From Clostridia bacterium (GTDB lineage Bacteria; Bacillota; Clostridia; Monoglobales; Monoglobaceae), in contig JAGARO010000004.1 of assembly GCA_017622215.1 (NCBI GenBank), forward strand, positions 124,001 through 188,000: 64,000 nt of DNA, read 5' to 3'. Positions 23,644-31,986 of the stretch are shown here, piece after piece. Position numbers and translations under genes: made by a program. Numbering within the stretch: the stretch's first letter is position 1; each line of letters begins with the position of its first letter. The notes beneath the pieces are model-generated. The model was not told the origin of the DNA and ran no database searches. It worked only from the letters and a program-made list of their open reading frames with translations.

Positions 23644-23672
23644 TTGACAAAGAAAAAAGGGTGTGCTATAAT
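23644..23672 (+). promoter_or_regulatory. Promoter of the aromatic amino-acid operon
   Basis: Consensus TTGACA (23644-23649) and TATAAT (23667-23672) with a 17-bp spacer. It leads into a roughly 215-nt leader with a peptide and an attenuator. Confidence 0.9.
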
Positions 23673-23703
23673 TCAGGGAAAGAAACATAGGAGAAGTATA
23701 AAT

Positions 23704-23802
23704 ATGATACAGTTATCTTTAGTTTTTGCATTCATATATTTTTACTTTTACTTTTACTTTATTAACGAAGTAAGAGTGATTTGTGATGCAAACAATCGGT
23801 AA
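23704..23802 (+). CDS. Phe/Tyr leader peptide of the aromatic operon (32 aa)
   Basis: ATG 23704 lies seven bases after AGGAGAAG. The peptide is MIQLSLVFAFIYFYFYFYF followed by 13 further residues. It has six Phe and four Tyr codons among codons 8-19, including an unbroken FYFYFYF run preceded by Y. It stops at 23800-23802, 42 nt before the terminator stem. It lies between the operon promoter and pheA. The end products of the operon are Phe and Tyr, so the peptide reads as a sensor for both charged tRNAs, as in pheL-type control. There are no protein-family features; its role is as a translated regulator. Confidence 0.88.
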   Translation: MIQLSLVFAFIYFYFYFYFINEVRVICDANNR

Positions 23803-23862
23803 TTGTATTATTCGAAATCTTTTGTAGATTAAGAGGAAGCTAAACCGCATGGATCACAAATC
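23778..23862 (+). promoter_or_regulatory. Predicted antiterminator pairing of the attenuator
   Basis: GATTTGTGAT (23778-23787, codons 25-28 of the leader) is perfectly complementary to ATCACAAATC (23853-23862), which spans the end of the terminator 5' arm, its loop and the start of the 3' arm. The two helices exclude each other. A ribosome stalled on Phe/Tyr codons (to 23760) leaves the segment free; one at the stop codon covers it. Confidence 0.75.
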
Positions 23863-23876
23863 CATGCGGATTTTTT
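23845..23876 (+). terminator. Attenuator terminator upstream of pheA
   Basis: A perfect 10-bp stem (CCGCATGGAT / ATCCATGCGG) with a CACAA loop is followed by ATTTTTTG, 21 bases before the pheA start. It is expected to stop transcription when Phe and Tyr are plentiful. Confidence 0.9.
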
Positions 23877-23896
23877 GTTTTTAAGGGTGTGATTTT

Positions 23897-24976
23897 ATGG
23901 CAAGCATTGAAAATGCAAGAAAGAAAATAAATGAAATTGACGAGAAAATGGCAAGGCTTTTCGTTGAGAGAATGGAGGCCTCCGAGGAAGTTTTTGAATA
24001 TAAAAAGGAAAACGGACTTCCTATAACAGACGAAAAGCGTGAGGCAATTGTAATTAAAAATAATTCTGAAAGAGTTGAGAATGAGCTTTACAGGAATTAT
24101 TATATTGACTTTATAAAGGATGTTATGGAGATTTCAAAGAAGTACCAGTCCTATCTGCAAAAGGGAGCAAAGGTTGCCTATTCAGGAATAAAAGGAGCCT
24201 TCGCCCACATAGCTGCAGGACAGATTTTCCCTGACGCCTGCCTTGAATCCTATCCTGATTTTGTAAGTGCATACAGGGCGGTTGAAACAGGCGAATGTGA
24301 TTTGGCGGTCCTTCCGATTGAAAACAGCTACGCAGGGGAAGTAAGCACAGTTATTGACCTTATCTATAAGGGAAGCCTTTATGTAACAGGGGTTCATTCC
24401 CTTGAAGTAAATCAGAATTTAGTTGGAATTAAGGGTGCAGACAAAAGCAAAATCAAAACAGTCATAAGTCATACCCAGGCACTCCAGCAGTGTGCGGAAT
24501 ATATAAAGGAAAACAACCTTGAAATAGTTGAAGAAACAAACACAGCAATTGCAGCAAGAAAGGTTGCAGACCTGAATAATCCTGAAATCGGAGCAATTTC
24601 AAGCTCCTTCGCAGCAGAAATTTACGGACTTGAGGTGCTGGAGAAGAACATAAATAAAAGCAATGTAAACACAACACGCTTTGCAGTTCTTTCAAGAATA
24701 AAGACAGCGGAGAAAAATGATACATCAATCCTTATGTTCTCAGTTTCCCACGAGGCAGGCTCTCTTGCAAAGGCGATAAATATTATCGGAAAGTACGGCT
24801 ATAATATGACAGCCTTAAGGAGCAGACCCGTAAAGGATACCCCGTGGCAGTATTATTTCTACGCAGAGCTTGACGGAGACACAGAAACAGATCTTGGAAA
24901 GATAATGCTTAAGGAACTGGGTGAATTCTGCGATACAATAAAGGTTGCGGGAACATATACCTTAAAAAAGCTTTAA
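23897..24976 (+). CDS. pheA: Bifunctional chorismate mutase / prephenate dehydratase
   Basis: The protein has 359 residues. An AroQ-type chorismate mutase (about 1-85; INEIDEKMARLFVERM) is fused to prephenate dehydratase (about 92-272) with the catalytic TTRF at 259-262. The C-terminal ACT domain (about 283-359) carries LRSRP, equivalent to the Phe-binding ESRP. It converts chorismate to prephenate and then phenylpyruvate, and should be feedback-inhibited by Phe through the ACT domain. It is the first structural gene after the attenuator, with AAGGGTG as ribosome site. Placing pheA first in the operon fits control by Phe. Confidence 0.95.
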   Translation: MASIENARKKINEIDEKMARLFVERMEASEEVFEYKKENGLPITDEKREAIVIKNNSERVENELYRNYYIDFIKDVMEISKKYQSYLQKGAKVAYSGIKGAFAHIAAGQIFPDACLESYPDFVSAYRAVETGECDLAVLPIENSYAGEVSTVIDLIYKGSLYVTGVHSLEVNQNLVGIKGADKSKIKTVISHTQALQQCAEYIKENNLEIVEETNTAIAARKVADLNNPEIGAISSSFAAEIYGLEVLEKNINKSNVNTTRFAVLSRIKTAEKNDTSILMFSVSHEAGSLAKAINIIGKYGYNMTALRSRPVKDTPWQYYFYAELDGDTETDLGKIMLKELGEFCDTIKVAGTYTLKKL

Positions 24977-24988
24977 GGAGAGAAATTT

Positions 24989-25981
24989 ATGATAAAGGAA
25001 GTTAAAGTAAACCCATCTTATGAGGTTGTAATTGAAAAGGGAGTGCTTAAAAAAGCAGGTGAGCTTTTGAATTTAGACCGAAAAGTGCTGATTGTAACAG
25101 ACGAGGGCGTGCCAAAACAGTACGCCGAGGAAGTTAAAAAACAGTGTAAAGAGGGATATATCGTAACAGTAATGCAGGGCGAAGACAGCAAAAGTATAAC
25201 TACCTTTGAGGCGCTTCTTAAGGTAATGCTCCTAAAGGGCTTTACAAGAGGGGATGCGGTAGTAGCCGTAGGCGGTGGCGTCTGCGGAGACCTTGCAGGC
25301 TTCACAGCCTCCTGCTATATGAGAGGCGTAGATTTTTATAATATTCCAACAACTCTGCTTTCACAGGTTGACTCATCTGTGGGCGGAAAAACAGCTGTAA
25401 ATTTGGGCGATACAAAAAATATTGTAGGAACTTTTTATCAGCCAAAGAAGGTGCTGATTGACAGCGAAACCTTAAAAACTCTCCCTGAAAGACAGATTGC
25501 CTGCGGAATGGCAGAGGTAATAAAAATGGCAGCCTGTATGGATAAGGAATTCTTTGAATTCCTTGAAACAGCCGATTTTATGGAGAATATTGAAGAAATA
25601 ATTTCAAGGTCGGTGGGACTTAAAGGAAATATTGTTCAGCAGGACGAAAAAGAAAAGGATTTGAGAAAAGTCCTGAATTTCGGTCATACAATCGGCCATG
25701 GCGTTGAGGTAAACACAGACCTTCTTCACGGAGAGGCGGTAGCTGTAGGAATGATGTATGTTACGGAAAGTCCAGTAAAAGAAAGACTTGAAAAAGTGCT
25801 TGATAAAGCAGGGCTTAGAACAGATATCGAAATTGATGAAGAACTTAAGAAAAAAGTAATTGAGGCAATGAGCCACGATAAAAAGACAGGAAACGGCAAG
25901 GTTTCCTTTGTAAAGATAAAGGAAATCGGCGAATTTTATTTTGAAGATACAGACCTTGATAAGCTTGAGGAGGTGTTTTAG
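24989..25981 (+). CDS. aroB: 3-dehydroquinate synthase
   Basis: The protein is 330 residues, slightly shorter than the typical 345-360. It has GGGVCGDLAGF (NAD and substrate loop), TTLLSQVDSSVGGKTAVN and the metal ligands in MAEVIKMA and NFGHTIGHGVE. It cyclises DAHP to 3-dehydroquinate using NAD and a divalent metal. ATG 24989 is behind AAGGAG, 12 bases after pheA. The stop directly abuts the aroC start. Confidence 0.95.
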   Translation: MIKEVKVNPSYEVVIEKGVLKKAGELLNLDRKVLIVTDEGVPKQYAEEVKKQCKEGYIVTVMQGEDSKSITTFEALLKVMLLKGFTRGDAVVAVGGGVCGDLAGFTASCYMRGVDFYNIPTTLLSQVDSSVGGKTAVNLGDTKNIVGTFYQPKKVLIDSETLKTLPERQIACGMAEVIKMAACMDKEFFEFLETADFMENIEEIISRSVGLKGNIVQQDEKEKDLRKVLNFGHTIGHGVEVNTDLLHGEAVAVGMMYVTESPVKERLEKVLDKAGLRTDIEIDEELKKKVIEAMSHDKKTGNGKVSFVKIKEIGEFYFEDTDLDKLEEVF

Positions 25982-27079
25982 ATGAAAAATACAATAGGAC
26001 AGAGTATAACCTTTACACTCTTTGGAGAAAGCCACGGAGATGCAATCGGCGGAGTCCTTGACGGACTTGCTCCTGGAATGGCAGTTGATATGAACTTTGT
26101 AAAAAAGTGCCTTGATAAAAGAAAGGGCATAAATGCACTTTCAACTCCAAGACGAGAAGAGGATGAGGTTGAGTTTTTAAGCGGAGTTTTCAGCGGAAAA
26201 ACCACAGGCACCCCCCTTGCATTTATCATAAGGAATAAGGATACAAAAAGTGCAGACTACGGTGAGATGCAAAATGTTGCAAGACCCTCCCATGCTGATT
26301 TTACAGCAGAAATGAAGTATATGGGATTTCAGGACTACCGTGGCGGCGGACATTTTAGTGGCAGACTCACAGCCCCGATTGTTGTAGCAGGCGCAATAAT
26401 TATGAGCGCCTTAAATAAAAAGGGAATTGAAATCGGGACACATATAAAATCCCTTGGGGCAGTAACTGAAAAATCCTTTAACGAGGCAAATGCAGATGAA
26501 ATAAAGAGCCTTTTTGAAAAGGATTTCCCTGTGCTTGATGAAGATATGGGACATAAAATGCAGGAGGAAATTTTAAAGGCAAAAGAAGACGCGGACAGCA
26601 TCGGCGGAGTCCTTGAAACAATGGTAGCGGGACTTCCTGCAGGAGTAGGCGAGCCATGGTTTGACTCTTTAGAGAGTGTAATGTCCCACGCCCTGTTCAG
26701 TATCCCTGCGGTAAAGGGAGTAGAGTTTGGCGGAGGCTTTGAAATGTGCGGAAAGCGTGGTTCTGAAGTCAATGACAGCTTAAGAACAGACGGTGAAAAG
26801 GTTTATTCTGAAACAAATTATTCAGGGGGTATAAACGGCGGAATTTCAAACGGTATGCCGATAATTGTAAGAACAGGCATAAAACCGACTCCAACTATTG
26901 GAATGGCGCAGGACACAATAAACTTTAAGACAATGGAAAATACAGAAATCAAAGGAAAGGGCAGACATGACCCTGCAATAATCCACAGGGCAGCCATCGT
27001 GGTAAGCTGTATGACTGCAATCACAGTAGCCGACAGCCTTGCCTTAAGATTTGGTACAAACTATTTGGCAGACAAATAG
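25982..27079 (+). CDS. aroC: Chorismate synthase
   Basis: The protein is 365 residues. FGESHGDAIGGVLDG near the start and RGGGHFSGRLTA in the middle are the family signatures for FMN and EPSP binding. HDPAIIHRAA lies near the end. It makes chorismate from EPSP with reduced FMN. There is no spacer after aroB (TAG then ATG), indicating coupling. Confidence 0.96.
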   Translation: MKNTIGQSITFTLFGESHGDAIGGVLDGLAPGMAVDMNFVKKCLDKRKGINALSTPRREEDEVEFLSGVFSGKTTGTPLAFIIRNKDTKSADYGEMQNVARPSHADFTAEMKYMGFQDYRGGGHFSGRLTAPIVVAGAIIMSALNKKGIEIGTHIKSLGAVTEKSFNEANADEIKSLFEKDFPVLDEDMGHKMQEEILKAKEDADSIGGVLETMVAGLPAGVGEPWFDSLESVMSHALFSIPAVKGVEFGGGFEMCGKRGSEVNDSLRTDGEKVYSETNYSGGINGGISNGMPIIVRTGIKPTPTIGMAQDTINFKTMENTEIKGKGRHDPAIIHRAAIVVSCMTAITVADSLALRFGTNYLADK

Positions 27080-27098: not shown

Positions 27099-28316
27099 AT
27101 GGAATACGGACTAATAGGAAGAACCTTAAAGCACAGCTTTTCCGTGGAGGTTCACAGGTCCTTTGGCTACGGATATGAGCTTAAGGAACTTGAACCGGAG
27201 GAGCTTGAGGAATTTTTCCGAAAGAGAGAATTTAAAGGAATAAATGTAACAATACCTTATAAAACAGAGGTTATGAAATACCTTGACGAGATTGATGCTT
27301 CAGCCGAAGAAATCGGCGCTGTTAACACAGTTGTAAATACTAACGGCAAACTCAAGGGTTTTAACACAGACATTTTCGGAATGAAGAAGATGTTTGAAAA
27401 AATGGGCGTAACCCTTGAAAATAAGAGGGTTTTAATTCTCGGCACAGGCGGGACAAGTAAGACGGCATTCTTCGTTGCTGAAAAATCGGGAGCCACAGAG
27501 GTTGTTAAGGTAAGCCGAACCCCGAGAACAAATGAAATTTCCTATGATGAGGCAGAGGCAACAGGAGATAGATGGGACATAATTATAAATACAACCCCCT
27601 GCGGAATGTATCCCAATGCAAATGCCACACCAATTGACATAGAAAACTTCCCAAACCTTAAGGCAGATTTCGACGCAATCTATAATCCCCTCCGTACAGA
27701 ACTGATTTTAAAGGCAGAGGAAAAAGGGATAAAGGCTCTCGGAGGACTATATATGCTTGTGTCCCAGGGCGTTTATTCAGCATCACTTTTCCAGGACACA
27801 GAACTGAAAAATGAAACAATAGATGAAATTTATATAAAACTTTTAAATGAAAAAAGGAATATAGTTTTAATAGGTATGCCGGGTTGTGGCAAAAGTACAA
27901 TTGCAAAAATGCTTGGAGATTTTGTTGACACAGATGCCATAATAGAAGAGCGAATGGGAAGAAAATGCGGAGAGATAATCAAGGAATACGGCGAACAGTT
28001 TTTCCGTGATACTGAAAGCAAGGTAATTGAGGAATTGTCGGTAGAAAATGGACTGATTATCTCCACAGGCGGAGGTGCAGTTTTAAGGGAAGAAAATGTG
28101 AAAAACCTTAAGAAAAACGGCGTGGTAATTTATCTTGAAGCACCTCTTGAAAGGCTTGGGGAAACAGCCTCAAGACCTCTTTCTGACACAAGGGAAAAGC
28201 TTGAAAAAATGTATGCTGAAAGAAAACCTGTTTATGAAAAAGCCTGTGATGTAAAGGTTGATGCAGGCGGCACAGCGGAAGACACATTAAAACAGGTTAA
28301 GGAGGCAGTAAAATGA
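27099..28316 (+). CDS. aroE-aroK: Shikimate dehydrogenase-shikimate kinase fusion (AroE-AroK)
   Basis: The start is set at ATG 27099, eight bases after CAGGTGAG, giving 405 residues. The AroE part (about 1-250) has HSFSVEVH, NVTIPYK with catalytic Lys55, GFNTD with Asp91, LGTGGTSKT for NADP and GLYMLVSQG. The AroK part (about 252-405) has the P-loop GMPGCGKST at 259-267, VDTDAIIEERMG, FRDTESKVIEE, STGGGAVL and the RPLS lid. It reduces dehydroshikimate and then phosphorylates shikimate, two consecutive steps in one chain. The linker is very short. A frameshift is unlikely because both domains look complete. Confidence 0.93.
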   Translation: MEYGLIGRTLKHSFSVEVHRSFGYGYELKELEPEELEEFFRKREFKGINVTIPYKTEVMKYLDEIDASAEEIGAVNTVVNTNGKLKGFNTDIFGMKKMFEKMGVTLENKRVLILGTGGTSKTAFFVAEKSGATEVVKVSRTPRTNEISYDEAEATGDRWDIIINTTPCGMYPNANATPIDIENFPNLKADFDAIYNPLRTELILKAEEKGIKALGGLYMLVSQGVYSASLFQDTELKNETIDEIYIKLLNEKRNIVLIGMPGCGKSTIAKMLGDFVDTDAIIEERMGRKCGEIIKEYGEQFFRDTESKVIEELSVENGLIISTGGGAVLREENVKNLKKNGVVIYLEAPLERLGETASRPLSDTREKLEKMYAERKPVYEKACDVKVDAGGTAEDTLKQVKEAVK

Positions 28317-28744
28317 AAATTTTAGTTATTAACGGACCGAATCTTAATATGCTCGGAGTTCGTGAGCCTGATATTTACGGAAGAAAAACATATAAAACCC
28401 TGGTAAAAGAGATTATGTCCCACGGCAAAAAAACAGGGATTAAAATTACAGCTTTCCAGTCCAACTGTGAGGGCAGAATTGTAGGTAAAATCCAGAAGTC
28501 TCTCGGGAAATATGACGGAATAGTTATAAATCCTGGGGCATATACCCATACAAGCATAGCAATTTTAGATGCACTAAAAGCGGTAAATATCCCAACAGTT
28601 GAAGTGCACATTTCAGAGGTTGACGAAAGGGAAGACTTCAGGAAAATAAGCTATGTAAGACTTTTTGCCGAAAAGTGTATTTCGGGAAAGGGCTTCAAAG
28701 GATATATTGAAGCCATAGATTATCTAGTAAAAAGAGGCGAATAG
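28313..28744 (+). CDS. aroQ: Type II 3-dehydroquinate dehydratase
   Basis: The protein is 143 residues. INGPNLNMLGVREPDIYG carries the catalytic Tyr, INPGAYTHTSIAI holds the Asn, and VEVHISEV holds the His. It dehydrates 3-dehydroquinate to dehydroshikimate in a dodecameric enzyme. It overlaps the aroE-aroK stop by four bases (ATGA), so it is coupled. Confidence 0.96.
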   Translation: MKILVINGPNLNMLGVREPDIYGRKTYKTLVKEIMSHGKKTGIKITAFQSNCEGRIVGKIQKSLGKYDGIVINPGAYTHTSIAILDALKAVNIPTVEVHISEVDEREDFRKISYVRLFAEKCISGKGFKGYIEAIDYLVKRGE

Positions 28745-28745
28745 A

Positions 28746-29948
28746 ATGACAGTTGAGTTTATTCCCACCACACTTCGCGGAGCAATAACCGCACCGCCCT
28801 CTAAAAGCATAGCCCACAGATGCCTGATTTCCTGCTATCTTGCAGGGGGAGGCACAGTGGAAAATATTGCATACTCCGAGGACGTAAAAGCAACAATAAA
28901 TTGCATAAGAGCTCTCGGCGGAGAGGTGCAGGAAAAGGAAAATGAAGTTGAAATAAAAGTGAATGGGACATTATGGGACATTCCTGAAAACCCTGTCTTA
29001 AATGCCAACGAAAGCGGAAGCACTTTGAGATTTTTTATTCCGATTTGTATGGCAATGGGACAGGAAATAACCCTTAAAGGAACAAAAAAACTTCTTTCAA
29101 GACCCTTGGGGTTTTATGAGGAACTTGCAAAGGATAAGGACTTTGATTTCAGCCGTAATGAAGAAGAAATTAAAATTAAAGGAAACCTTAAAAGCGGAAT
29201 TTATAGGCTGAAAGGAAACATAACAAGCCAGTATATAACAGGCCTTATGTTTGTTCTTCCACTTCTTGATGGCGACAGTAAAATCATAATTGAGCCACCT
29301 TTTGAAAGCCGTTCCTATGTGGTTATGACAGCTGAAATTCTTGGTAAATACGGAATTGAAACTGAACTTTTGGAGAACGAAATAAGGATAAAAGGCGGAC
29401 AGACATATAAGAAAACCGATTACAGAGTTGACGACGATATGTCCAACGGTGCATACCTTGAGGGTTATAACTACTGCGGAGAAAATAAGATAAAGGTAAG
29501 CGCGGAAACTCTGATAACTCAGGGCGACAGCGTCTATAAAGAATATCTGGAAAAGGTTAAAAATGGCGAAGAAGTTGACTTAACCGACTGCCCTGACCTT
29601 GGACCTCTACTTTATGCAGTGGCGTCAGCCAATAACGGTGGACGATTTAAGGGAACAGACCGACTTTCCATAAAGGAAAGCGACAGAAATCTTGCAATGC
29701 AGGAAGAACTTAAAAAGTTCGGAACAGAAATGGAAATCGGAGAGAATGAGGTTGTAATTAAAAAGTCGGAAATTAAAAAACCGACGGAAATCTTAGATTC
29801 CCATAATGACCATAGAATTTTTATGGCGCTTTCAATCCTCCTTTTAAAAACAGGCGGGAAAATAAAAGGTGCAGAATGTGTAAAAAAGAGCTTCCCTGAC
29901 TATATAGAGGTGCTTGAAGAACTGGGGGCAGAATTTAATGTTAGTTAA
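28746..29948 (+). CDS. aroA: EPSP synthase (3-phosphoshikimate 1-carboxyvinyltransferase)
   Basis: The protein is 400 residues. PPSKSIAHRCLI at the N-terminus binds shikimate 3-phosphate, NESGSTLRFFIPI forms the PEP site, and KESDRNLAM and SHNDHRIFMAL follow. It is somewhat shorter than the usual 425 residues, but all signatures are present. The NESGSTLRF segment has Glu-Ser where many enzymes have Ala-Gly, so it reads as a class II-like variant. It starts one base after the aroQ stop. Confidence 0.94.
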   Translation: MTVEFIPTTLRGAITAPPSKSIAHRCLISCYLAGGGTVENIAYSEDVKATINCIRALGGEVQEKENEVEIKVNGTLWDIPENPVLNANESGSTLRFFIPICMAMGQEITLKGTKKLLSRPLGFYEELAKDKDFDFSRNEEEIKIKGNLKSGIYRLKGNITSQYITGLMFVLPLLDGDSKIIIEPPFESRSYVVMTAEILGKYGIETELLENEIRIKGGQTYKKTDYRVDDDMSNGAYLEGYNYCGENKIKVSAETLITQGDSVYKEYLEKVKNGEEVDLTDCPDLGPLLYAVASANNGGRFKGTDRLSIKESDRNLAMQEELKKFGTEMEIGENEVVIKKSEIKKPTEILDSHNDHRIFMALSILLLKTGGKIKGAECVKKSFPDYIEVLEELGAEFNVS

Positions 29949-30798
29949 TATAAAAAAGAATATTTTGATTGTAGGTCTTGGACTTTTAGGCGGAAGCTAC
30001 GCCAAAGGTCTTAAACGATATGGTTTCAGGATAACAGCCATAACAAAGGAGCAATCTTCAATTGATTATGCCATAGAAAAGGGCATAATCGACGAGGGAA
30101 GTACTTCCCCTGACGAAAAGCTTATAAAGGACGCAGACATAATTATTTTCGCCCTTTATCCTCACGTTTTTGTGGAGTGGATAAAGGAAAACGGAAAGAA
30201 TATTAAAAAGGGAGCGCTGATTACAGATGTAACAGGTGTAAAGGTCCCGATAGTTGATGAGATACAGTCTCTGCTTCCTGAGGGTGCAGAGTTCGTACCT
30301 GCTCATCCTATGGCAGGCCGTGAGGTCAGCGGTGTGGAAAACAGCACAGAGGAAATCTTTAAGGGGGCAAACTATATTGTAACCCCGACGGATAAAAATA
30401 CAGAAGATGGAATTGAAGCCTGTTGTGAAATCGGACGGCTTCTGGGCTTTGGAGAAATTTCTGTGATTTCTCCCCAGGAGCATGACGAAATGATAGGCTT
30501 TTTGTCCCAGCTCACCCACTGTATTGCCATAAGCCTTATGACCTGTAATCATAATGAACAGATTGAGCGATTTACAGGGGACTCATTCAGGGATTTAACA
30601 AGAATTGCGAAAATAAATGATGAAATGTGGAGCGAGCTGTTTCTGGCGAATAAAGAGAAACTGCTGAAACAGATGGAGCTTTTTGAAGAACAGTTTAAGA
30701 AACTGAAAAAGACACTTGAGAATGATGACTGTGAAGAGATGAGAAAGATTATGCAGGCATCTACAAAACGAAGAAAGAAATTTGACAAAGAATTATAG
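29938..30798 (+). CDS. tyrA: Prephenate dehydrogenase
   Basis: The start is set at ATG 29938, giving 286 residues and an 11-base overlap with aroA. The NAD site is VGLGLLGGSYAKGL. HPMAGREVSGVE and LSQLTHCIAI are the prephenate-binding and catalytic segments. It makes 4-hydroxyphenylpyruvate for Tyr. There is no ACT domain, so Tyr feedback is not obvious at the protein level. This leaves transcriptional attenuation by Tyr codons as a plausible route of control. Confidence 0.92.
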   Translation: MLVNIKKNILIVGLGLLGGSYAKGLKRYGFRITAITKEQSSIDYAIEKGIIDEGSTSPDEKLIKDADIIIFALYPHVFVEWIKENGKNIKKGALITDVTGVKVPIVDEIQSLLPEGAEFVPAHPMAGREVSGVENSTEEIFKGANYIVTPTDKNTEDGIEACCEIGRLLGFGEISVISPQEHDEMIGFLSQLTHCIAISLMTCNHNEQIERFTGDSFRDLTRIAKINDEMWSELFLANKEKLLKQMELFEEQFKKLKKTLENDDCEEMRKIMQASTKRRKKFDKEL

Positions 30799-30814: not shown

Positions 30815-31843
30815 ATGAATATGAAATTTTTAAGAAAACTTCCAATCCCAATGGAGATTAAGGAAAAATATCCAATGACAATGGAGATGACAGAACTCAA
30901 GGAAAAAAGGGACGAGGAGATAAAGAAAATTTTCCGCGGAGAGGATAAAAGACTTATTGTTGTAATCGGCCCATGCTCTGCTGACCACGAGGAAAGCGTA
31001 ATGGATTACCTGGCAAGGCTTAAAAAGGTTGATGAACAGGTTAAAGACAAGCTTATGATTGTACCAAGAATTTACACAAATAAGCCAAGAACCACAGGAG
31101 CAGGCTATAAGGGAATGCTCCACCAGCCGGACCCAAACAGCGATTCAGATATGTTGGGCGGACTTGTTGCAATAAGAAATCTTCATATAAGAGCAATAAA
31201 GGAAATCGGATTCACCTGTGCAGACGAAATGTTATACACAGAAAATTACAGATATCTCTCCGACCTTCTCTCCTATGTTGCAGTAGGTGCAAGGTCAACT
31301 GAAAACCAACAGCATCGCTTGGTTTCAAGCGGACTTGATATTCCTGTGGGACTTAAGAACCCAACAGGCGGGGATATTTCGGTTATGATGAACTCCATAA
31401 CAGCAGCCCAGAGCTCTCATAAATTCATTTACAGAGGCTGGGAAGTTGAAAGCGGCGGAAATGAATATGCCCACGCAATTTTAAGAGGATATGTAAATAA
31501 ACATGGCCAGTCCCTGCCGAATTACCACTACGAAGATTTAATCCATCTTTGCGAAAGTTACGATAACGGAAACTTCAAAAACCCAAGTGTAATTGTAGAT
31601 ACAAACCACGCAAATTCAGGCAAGAAATATGAAGAACAGGTAAGAATTGCAAAGGAAGTTCTTCATAGTATGCGTCATTCTGAGGATATAAATAATCTTG
31701 TCAAGGGTCTTATGATTGAAAGCTATATTGAAGACGGAGCTTGCAAGGCAGAAGAAAATATCTACGGAAAGTCTATAACAGACCCATGCTTAGGTTGGGA
31801 AAAGACAGAAAAACTTCTCTTTGAACTTGCAGATTTATTATAA
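30815..31843 (+). CDS. aroF: DAHP synthase, type I alpha (AroFGH-like)
   Basis: The protein is 342 residues. VVIGPCSADH, PRIYTNKPRTTGAGYKG, GARSTENQQHR, VGLKNPTGG and VDTNHANSGK are the PEP, erythrose-4-phosphate and metal-binding motifs of the E. coli AroF/G/H class. It commits carbon to the shikimate pathway. It closes the operon 16 bases after tyrA. No strong terminator is visible before the tRNA-Ser promoter, so read-through is possible. Confidence 0.95.
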   Translation: MNMKFLRKLPIPMEIKEKYPMTMEMTELKEKRDEEIKKIFRGEDKRLIVVIGPCSADHEESVMDYLARLKKVDEQVKDKLMIVPRIYTNKPRTTGAGYKGMLHQPDPNSDSDMLGGLVAIRNLHIRAIKEIGFTCADEMLYTENYRYLSDLLSYVAVGARSTENQQHRLVSSGLDIPVGLKNPTGGDISVMMNSITAAQSSHKFIYRGWEVESGGNEYAHAILRGYVNKHGQSLPNYHYEDLIHLCESYDNGNFKNPSVIVDTNHANSGKKYEEQVRIAKEVLHSMRHSEDINNLVKGLMIESYIEDGACKAEENIYGKSITDPCLGWEKTEKLLFELADLL

Positions 31844-31849
31844 AATCTA

Positions 31850-31878
31850 TTGATTTTTAGTATTTCCTGTGATAGAAT
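31850..31878 (+). promoter_or_regulatory. Promoter of tRNA-Ser
   Basis: TTGATT (31850-31855), a 17-bp spacer and TAGAAT (31873-31878). Confidence 0.65.
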
Positions 31879-31894: not shown

Positions 31895-31986
31895 GGAGAT
31901 GTACCCAAGTGGTTGAAGGGGTCGGATTCGAAATCCGAAAGGTCGGTCATGCCGGCGCGGGCGTTCAAATCGTCTCATCTCCGCCA
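31895..31986 (+). tRNA. tRNA-Ser (anticodon CGA)
   Basis: The acceptor GGAGATG/CATCTCC, anticodon loop TTCGAAA, a long GC-rich variable arm and encoded CCA are present. It has the class II shape at 92 nt. Confidence 0.96.

Follow-up and report, generated by a model that had tools for sequence, protein, structure and literature searches.

The window analysed here, a stretch of 64,000 nucleotides of Clostridia DNA, very probably carries in front of pheA a classical ribosome-mediated transcription attenuator that gates an eight-gene pheA-aro-tyrA operon. The pheL/trpL-type attenuation logic proposed in an earlier sequence-only reading is supported by the recurrence of such leaders in Clostridia, by the complementarity between segments 2 and 3, and by a computed ribosome switch. 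We lean, with less assurance, towards a wider reading, in which the element is one of a widespread and hitherto undescribed group of Clostridia Phe/Tyr attenuators on shikimate operons, partly inherited or transferred together with the pheA operon between families. Each member would sense a shortage of either Phe or Tyr on behalf of the entire pathway; its hosts seem to lack Trp synthesis and would, alongside it, handle Phe at pheS through T-boxes.

The promoter, ribosome site, 32-codon FY peptide and perfect 10-bp terminator had all been placed correctly, as rechecking of the sequence showed (Table 1). The -35 element TTGACA (23644-23649) and the -10 element TATAAT (23667-23672) are separated by a 17-nt spacer, and 3' of this promoter lies a translatable short ORF with a start codon and a Shine-Dalgarno sequence. 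Its codon run comprises Phe codons 8, 10, 13, 15, 17 and 19 (the last at 23758) and Tyr codons 12, 14, 16 and 18, matching the end products of an operon that contains both pheA and tyrA. Part of the control codons consists of a TTTTAC tandem repeat (23740-23757), and slippage could therefore add or remove Phe-Tyr codons two at a time. The intrinsic terminator sits between the leader ORF and the first structural gene, pheA (ATG at 23897); its loop is CACAA, and the hairpin is followed by ATTTTTTGTTTTT, with the U tract at 23871-23882.

Table 1. Features of the leader region and the downstream operon, in window positions
Feature	Position	Strand	Basis
Sigma-70-type promoter TTGACA-17-TATAAT, extended -10 TG	23644..23672	+	12/12 consensus matches; identical in sister genome
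Shine-Dalgarno AGGAGAAG of leader ORF	23689..23696	+	Sequence
Leader peptide ORF, 32 codons, MIQLSLVFAFIYFYFYFYFINEVRVICDANNR, then stop	23704..23802	+	Sequence; one residue different in sister
Control codons 8-19, six Phe and four Tyr	23725..23760	+	Sequence; 0/2000 shuffles equally FY-dense
Segment 1, base-pairs with 23767-23792 when the leader is not translated, hiding segment 2	23725..23754	+	MFE and centroid fold
Segment 2, antiterminator 5' strand, exact core 23778-23787	23778..23790	+	Sequence, folding
Intrinsic terminator hairpin (3:4), 10 perfect bp	23845..23869	+	Sequence; identical in sister
Segment 3, antiterminator 3' strand, overlaps terminator 5' arm, loop and start of 3' arm	23850..23862	+	Sequence, folding
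pheA, chorismate mutase-prephenate dehydratase	23897..24976	+	Pfam CM_2 1e-18, PDT 1e-50
aroB	24989..25981	+	Pfam DHQ_synthase
aroC	25982..27079	+	Pfam Chorismate_synt 2e-123
aroE-aroK fusion, shikimate dehydrogenase and shikimate kinase	27099..28316	+	Pfam Shikimate_dh_N, SKI
aroQ, type II dehydroquinase	28313..28744	+	Pfam DHquinase_II
aroA	28746..29948	+	Pfam EPSP_synthase
tyrA, prephenate dehydrogenase, start codon uncertain	29914..30798	+	Pfam PDH_N, PDH_C
aroF, DAHP synthase type I, last operon gene	30815..31843	+	Pfam DAHP_synth_1

Downstream of the leader, the assignment of eight genes running from DAHP synthase to prephenate processing was borne out by Pfam. The intergenic gaps are small or absent, and no leader-like terminator was found inside the operon, where the plus-strand hairpins are limited to 5-7 pairs with weaker T tails, their total lying near the shuffle mean; a single transcript from pheA to aroF, shared by all eight genes, is therefore likely. 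Directly behind aroF there is a tRNA-Ser(CGA) gene (31895-31986) with its own promoter-like site (31850-31878).

The claimed 10-nt complementarity across the terminator was verified base for base: positions 23778-23787 (GATTTGTGAT) are the exact reverse complement of 23853-23862 (ATCACAAATC). This core alone takes up the terminator loop and only 2 and 3 nt of the terminator arms, which is why its extension matters: past a 1x1 G-G mismatch, the antiterminator continues with CA:UG to position 23850 and takes five of the ten bases of the terminator 5' arm. In the minimum-free-energy fold, a 1:2 helix over the control codons, additional to the sequence-only reading, completes the trpL/pheL anatomy. 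An outer helix joining the leader start and stop codons also appeared in the leader fold and was set aside, one of its pairs being broken in the sister genome. The sister differs from the window by two changes in the 99-nt ORF and by several substitutions and gaps in the spacer 23832-23844; its paired segments are identical, and it is therefore too close for a test of the pairing.

For ribosome-placed folding, the A-site plus 12 nt was masked, the upstream RNA was ignored, and the ribosome was moved along codon by codon on a transcript whose end lay at 23862-23865. The antiterminator probability was 0.99-1.00 with the A-site on codons 12-20, and 0.94-0.98 on codons 8 and 10. It stood at 0.75 on codon 22 and at 0.00 everywhere between codon 24 and the stop codon; without a ribosome it was at most 0.02. 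The computed loss falls just past the last Phe codon (19). In this computed switch the antiterminator excludes the terminator and is exposed only with a ribosome on the control codons, in line with the proposal that stalling on Phe/Tyr codons frees the segment and finishing the peptide masks it; the predicted antiterminator collapses once the ribosome passes the Phe/Tyr block. At equilibrium with a stalled ribosome, the terminator (-25.8 kcal/mol) is favoured over the antiterminator (-22.5 kcal/mol) by ~3 kcal/mol, and once the whole 3' arm is transcribed the terminator wins in all ribosome states. Antitermination must thus be kinetic, as is generally held for trpL too.

The proposed mechanism would begin with RNA polymerase leaving the promoter and a ribosome initiating the leader ORF at 23704, after which three situations could arise: (i) when charged tRNA-Phe or tRNA-Tyr is scarce, the ribosome would stall in codons 8-19, on segment 1, leaving 23778-23790 free to pair with 23850-23862 once the latter is transcribed, and the preformed antiterminator helix would block the terminator briefly, while the polymerase passes the U tract, allowing pheA-aroBC-aroEK-aroQ-aroA-tyrA-aroF to be transcribed; (ii) when both tRNAs are charged, the ribosome would proceed past codon 24 and cover segment 2, the terminator would form, and transcription would stop before pheA; (iii) without a ribosome, segment 1 would pair with segment 2, and the terminator would likewise stop transcription before pheA. 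We infer both the co-transcriptional kinetics and the responses to Phe and to Tyr, such that Tyr shortage would act as well as Phe shortage.

The same attenuator may instead be effectively a one-amino-acid sensor for Phe, its Tyr codons adding little, an alternative to which we give appreciable but lesser weight. There is a precedent in C. glutamicum, where the aroR leader (Phe-Tyr-Phe) answers Phe, not Tyr, limitation (PMC11802643). In our case, Phe codons are more numerous than Tyr codons, and the first and last control codons are both Phe; however, each of the four Tyr codons gives a computed antiterminator probability of ~0.99 if the ribosome stalls there, the operon has tyrA besides pheA, and F and Y are both retained in homologous leaders.

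Related PheA proteins were gathered from contigs and whole genomes, and their upstream regions were then scanned for an FY-rich ORF plus a terminator. This upstream scan gave ~19 pheA loci, window and sister included, in which an FY-rich ORF precedes a terminator; overall, an FY-rich leader ORF followed by a terminator was seen at ~20 distinct loci (pheA, aroF or aroB) of Clostridia, plus Treponema MAGs, with the like anatomy 5' of pheA in about a dozen lineages and 5' of aroF or aroB in others. Among the 26 genomes of the class sample that have a close PheA, nine contained such a leader, two of these weak. The FY-leader-plus-terminator matches in 1.34 Mb of loci were almost all 5' of pheA, aroB or aroF. 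The expectation of conserved FY-rich leaders 5' of pheA in related Clostridia thus held, as they recur with terminators in many Clostridia. A leader-peptide search in two families found no members past those already known, and a survey upstream of ~90 DAHP synthase loci (gene start unrecovered in 17 stretches) gave one FY leader, because aroF is rarely the first gene.

Several loci vary this arrangement. Three Pygmaiobacter loci (L083:11177, L084:11176 and L089:11178, the last from a named isolate) have an FY-rich leader and a strong terminator between pheA and aroB, that is, an intra-operon attenuator. At L139:1291 and L141:1232 (minus strand), an F/Y-rich leader and a terminator stand 5' of a gene for a monofunctional prephenate dehydratase (pheA), and at L079:6674 and L209 the FY leader lies immediately 5' of aroF (DAHP synthase). 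Six loci (L034, L131, L133, L136, L134 and L135) have terminator-like hairpins 5' of pheA without any FY-rich ORF, which can be read as decayed attenuators or as the mark of a different sensor. Another clostridial genome (L235) has a T-box-like TGGNACC motif ~113 nt 5' of aroF, perhaps another sensor for the same pathway.

With one representative per leader type, 11 lineages were compared by 2:3 duplex energy against dinucleotide shuffles and combined by Fisher's method. The combined p was 1.1e-7 over the 11 lineages and 1.1e-6 without the window, values to be taken as a guide since the leader types are not all proven independent. The complementarity reached p <0.02 in five representatives (L001, L005, L036, L037 and L120) and 0.049 in L072, and was weak in L126 (0.06) and L132 (0.13); L057, L123 and L124 showed no significant 2:3 complementarity against the shuffles. 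In ribosome-placed folding, most representatives gave a high antiterminator plateau over the FY codons that ended no later than the stop codon. For several relatives, antitermination is predicted when the leader is not translated; the 1:2 element is thus not general but a trait of the window and a small number of relatives (L009, L037).

A homologous leader, MN..LMNASKYFF.FSVVFYFGYAYFAMKKLLV, was found 5' of pheA at seven loci, which span four GTDB families, and 5' of aroF in L209, which indicates that the leader has moved between genes. In the seven pheA loci, region 2 reads GUUAC-uu-GUGAG, with nearly invariant nucleotides across the family, and region 3 reads CUCAC-uu-GUAAC; the 2:3 and 3:4 pairs are held in 100% of cells (seven loci), versus at most 55% and 52% with the partners slid. 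As to covarying 2:3 pairs, named beforehand as a further line of support, complementarity recurs with unrelated sequences, but the pair changes in the alignable family of seven are wobble changes only, with no compensatory double changes. These data bear on a second alternative, according to which the product of the sORF is a small hydrophobic membrane peptide that has a role of its own, and the terminator only lowers operon expression constitutively. The peptide is strongly hydrophobic and its sequence is kept in the homologous family; however, from one lineage to the next the peptides are almost wholly different, yet FY content, position and terminator are preserved, region 2 RNA pairing is kept where a residue changes (in L008, the one Leu to Pro change in the pairing segment falls on an unpaired internal-loop base and all pairs remain), and the 2:3 complementarity is above chance. 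We consider this explanation very improbable.

In the PheA tree (IQ-TREE, 91 rows), the clade with NASKYFF leaders has the window's genus as its sister group (95/77), and within this clade eight GTDB families are intermixed on short branches, a pattern that points to putative horizontal transfer of pheA or its operon. The leader start, the leader stop and the terminator stand at ~-195, -95 and -55 to -25 from pheA in both the window's genus and this clade, and the peptide and the stems have almost wholly diverged between them; judged from these sequences, the arrangement was likely inherited while its sequence was turned over. The remaining FY leaders are scattered across the tree. Two Treponema/Spirochaetia MAGs (L037 and L038) contain a clostridial-type pheA with an FY leader and a terminator, likely reflecting either horizontal transfer or contig misbinning.

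In the textbook view, Firmicutes use T-boxes and TRAP, and leader-peptide attenuation belongs chiefly to Proteobacteria. The contrast with T-boxes drawn in the sequence-only reading is valid but not exclusive, since the same genome holds three of them: two (L101 and L102) of which one lies 5' of a LeuA-like synthase gene and one near a sodium:solute symporter-like gene, and a third 5' of pheS, the neighbouring gene names being read off the sequences. The pheS-pheT T-box (L103:1501-1732; G000:C1:95159-95390, minus strand) has a TTC-like specifier by eye. With this T-box at pheS and the leader peptide at pheA, one organism would thus read Phe charging by two devices. It is conceivable that the pheA leader is itself a T-box or another metabolite- or protein-responsive leader that contains a short ORF by happenstance, and the T-boxes in the genome lend this some plausibility. 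Nevertheless, an Rfam scan of the leader at gathering and permissive thresholds gave no family at cut-off and sub-threshold matches that look chance-like, the T-box model RF00230 had no match in the leader versus its three matches elsewhere in the genome, and the leader is only ~200 nt long, with the ORF filling most of it; such an explanation is hardly credible.

TrpA and TrpC were undetected in the window's genome (93.6% complete, ~6% possibly missing), the control genomes all being positive, and TrpC was also undetected in the sister genome. The organism is therefore a probable Trp auxotroph. If no Trp is made, the pathway serves no aromatic amino acids other than Phe and Tyr, which would explain a Phe/Tyr sensor gating the common pathway. 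Trp auxotrophy was ruled out as a correlate of the leader, because most relatives that have this type of pheA also lack TrpC, whether a leader is present or not; its absence is thus a trait of the operon type, not of the leader.

The leader also exceeds chance in its composition and fold. Its fold has z = -6.7 against shuffles, a complement of at least 10 nt arose in 11 of 5000 dinucleotide shuffles, and ten F/Y in 12 codons arose in none of 2000 (shuffle maximum 8). A scan of the entire 1,176,513-base (1.18-Mb) genome for a short ORF with at least 6 F/Y in 12 codons plus a terminator upstream of a long ORF returned this FY leader as the sole such element. A simple hexamer repeat makes up part of the control codons, but these shuffles, the uniqueness in the genome and the non-repetitive FY leaders of relatives leave almost no room for a chance AT-rich TTTTAC repeat that reads as F/Y beside an unrelated terminator.

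Taken as a classical attenuator, the element belongs to a type of switch that is already known, whose occurrence in Clostridia is widespread yet little described. A reduced gut clostridial genome would govern all of its aromatic pathway through a leader peptide and keep a T-box at pheS. One can now test the reason for having two sensors of tRNA charging for a single amino acid, as well as whether an alternation of Phe and Tyr codons provides genuine control by two inputs. Short hydrophobic ORFs, which annotation would pass over or misname, also gain functions.

The segment pairings 1:2, 2:3 and 3:4 follow the logic of E. coli pheL. Both systems place a Phe-rich leader ORF 5' of a bifunctional chorismate mutase-prephenate dehydratase gene, pheA, with charged tRNA-Phe being sensed in E. 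coli (PMC11802643). Unlike pheL-pheA, the window has alternating Phe/Tyr codons, an eight-gene shikimate-to-Phe/Tyr operon, a Clostridia genome and no Rfam match above cut-off. In open-access papers, we found no Phe/Tyr leader described in Clostridia, and the nearest relatives come from other groups. The aroR leader of C. glutamicum, with Phe-Tyr-Phe 5' of the aroF (DAHP synthase) operon (PMC11802643), shares a Phe/Tyr leader peptide, ribosome stalling and an aromatic-pathway operon; it differs in belonging to an Actinobacterium, in having few control codons, in reportedly responding to Phe but not Tyr, and in preceding an aroF rather than a pheA operon. The uORFC-13-1 motif of Acholeplasma (PMC8632094) likewise combines a promoter, an RBS, a short ORF with a U run coding Phe and an intrinsic terminator in front of a shikimate gene; however, it is restricted to Acholeplasma and environmental sequences, has at least one Phe, lies 5' of aroF and is predicted only. 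Within Firmicutes, leader-peptide attenuation exists or is predicted for the S. aureus ilv-leu leader peptide (PMC5794164) and the Bacillales hisZ/hisS His leader (PMC2965389), which differ from the leader described here in sensing other amino acids and in belonging to Bacilli, not Clostridia.
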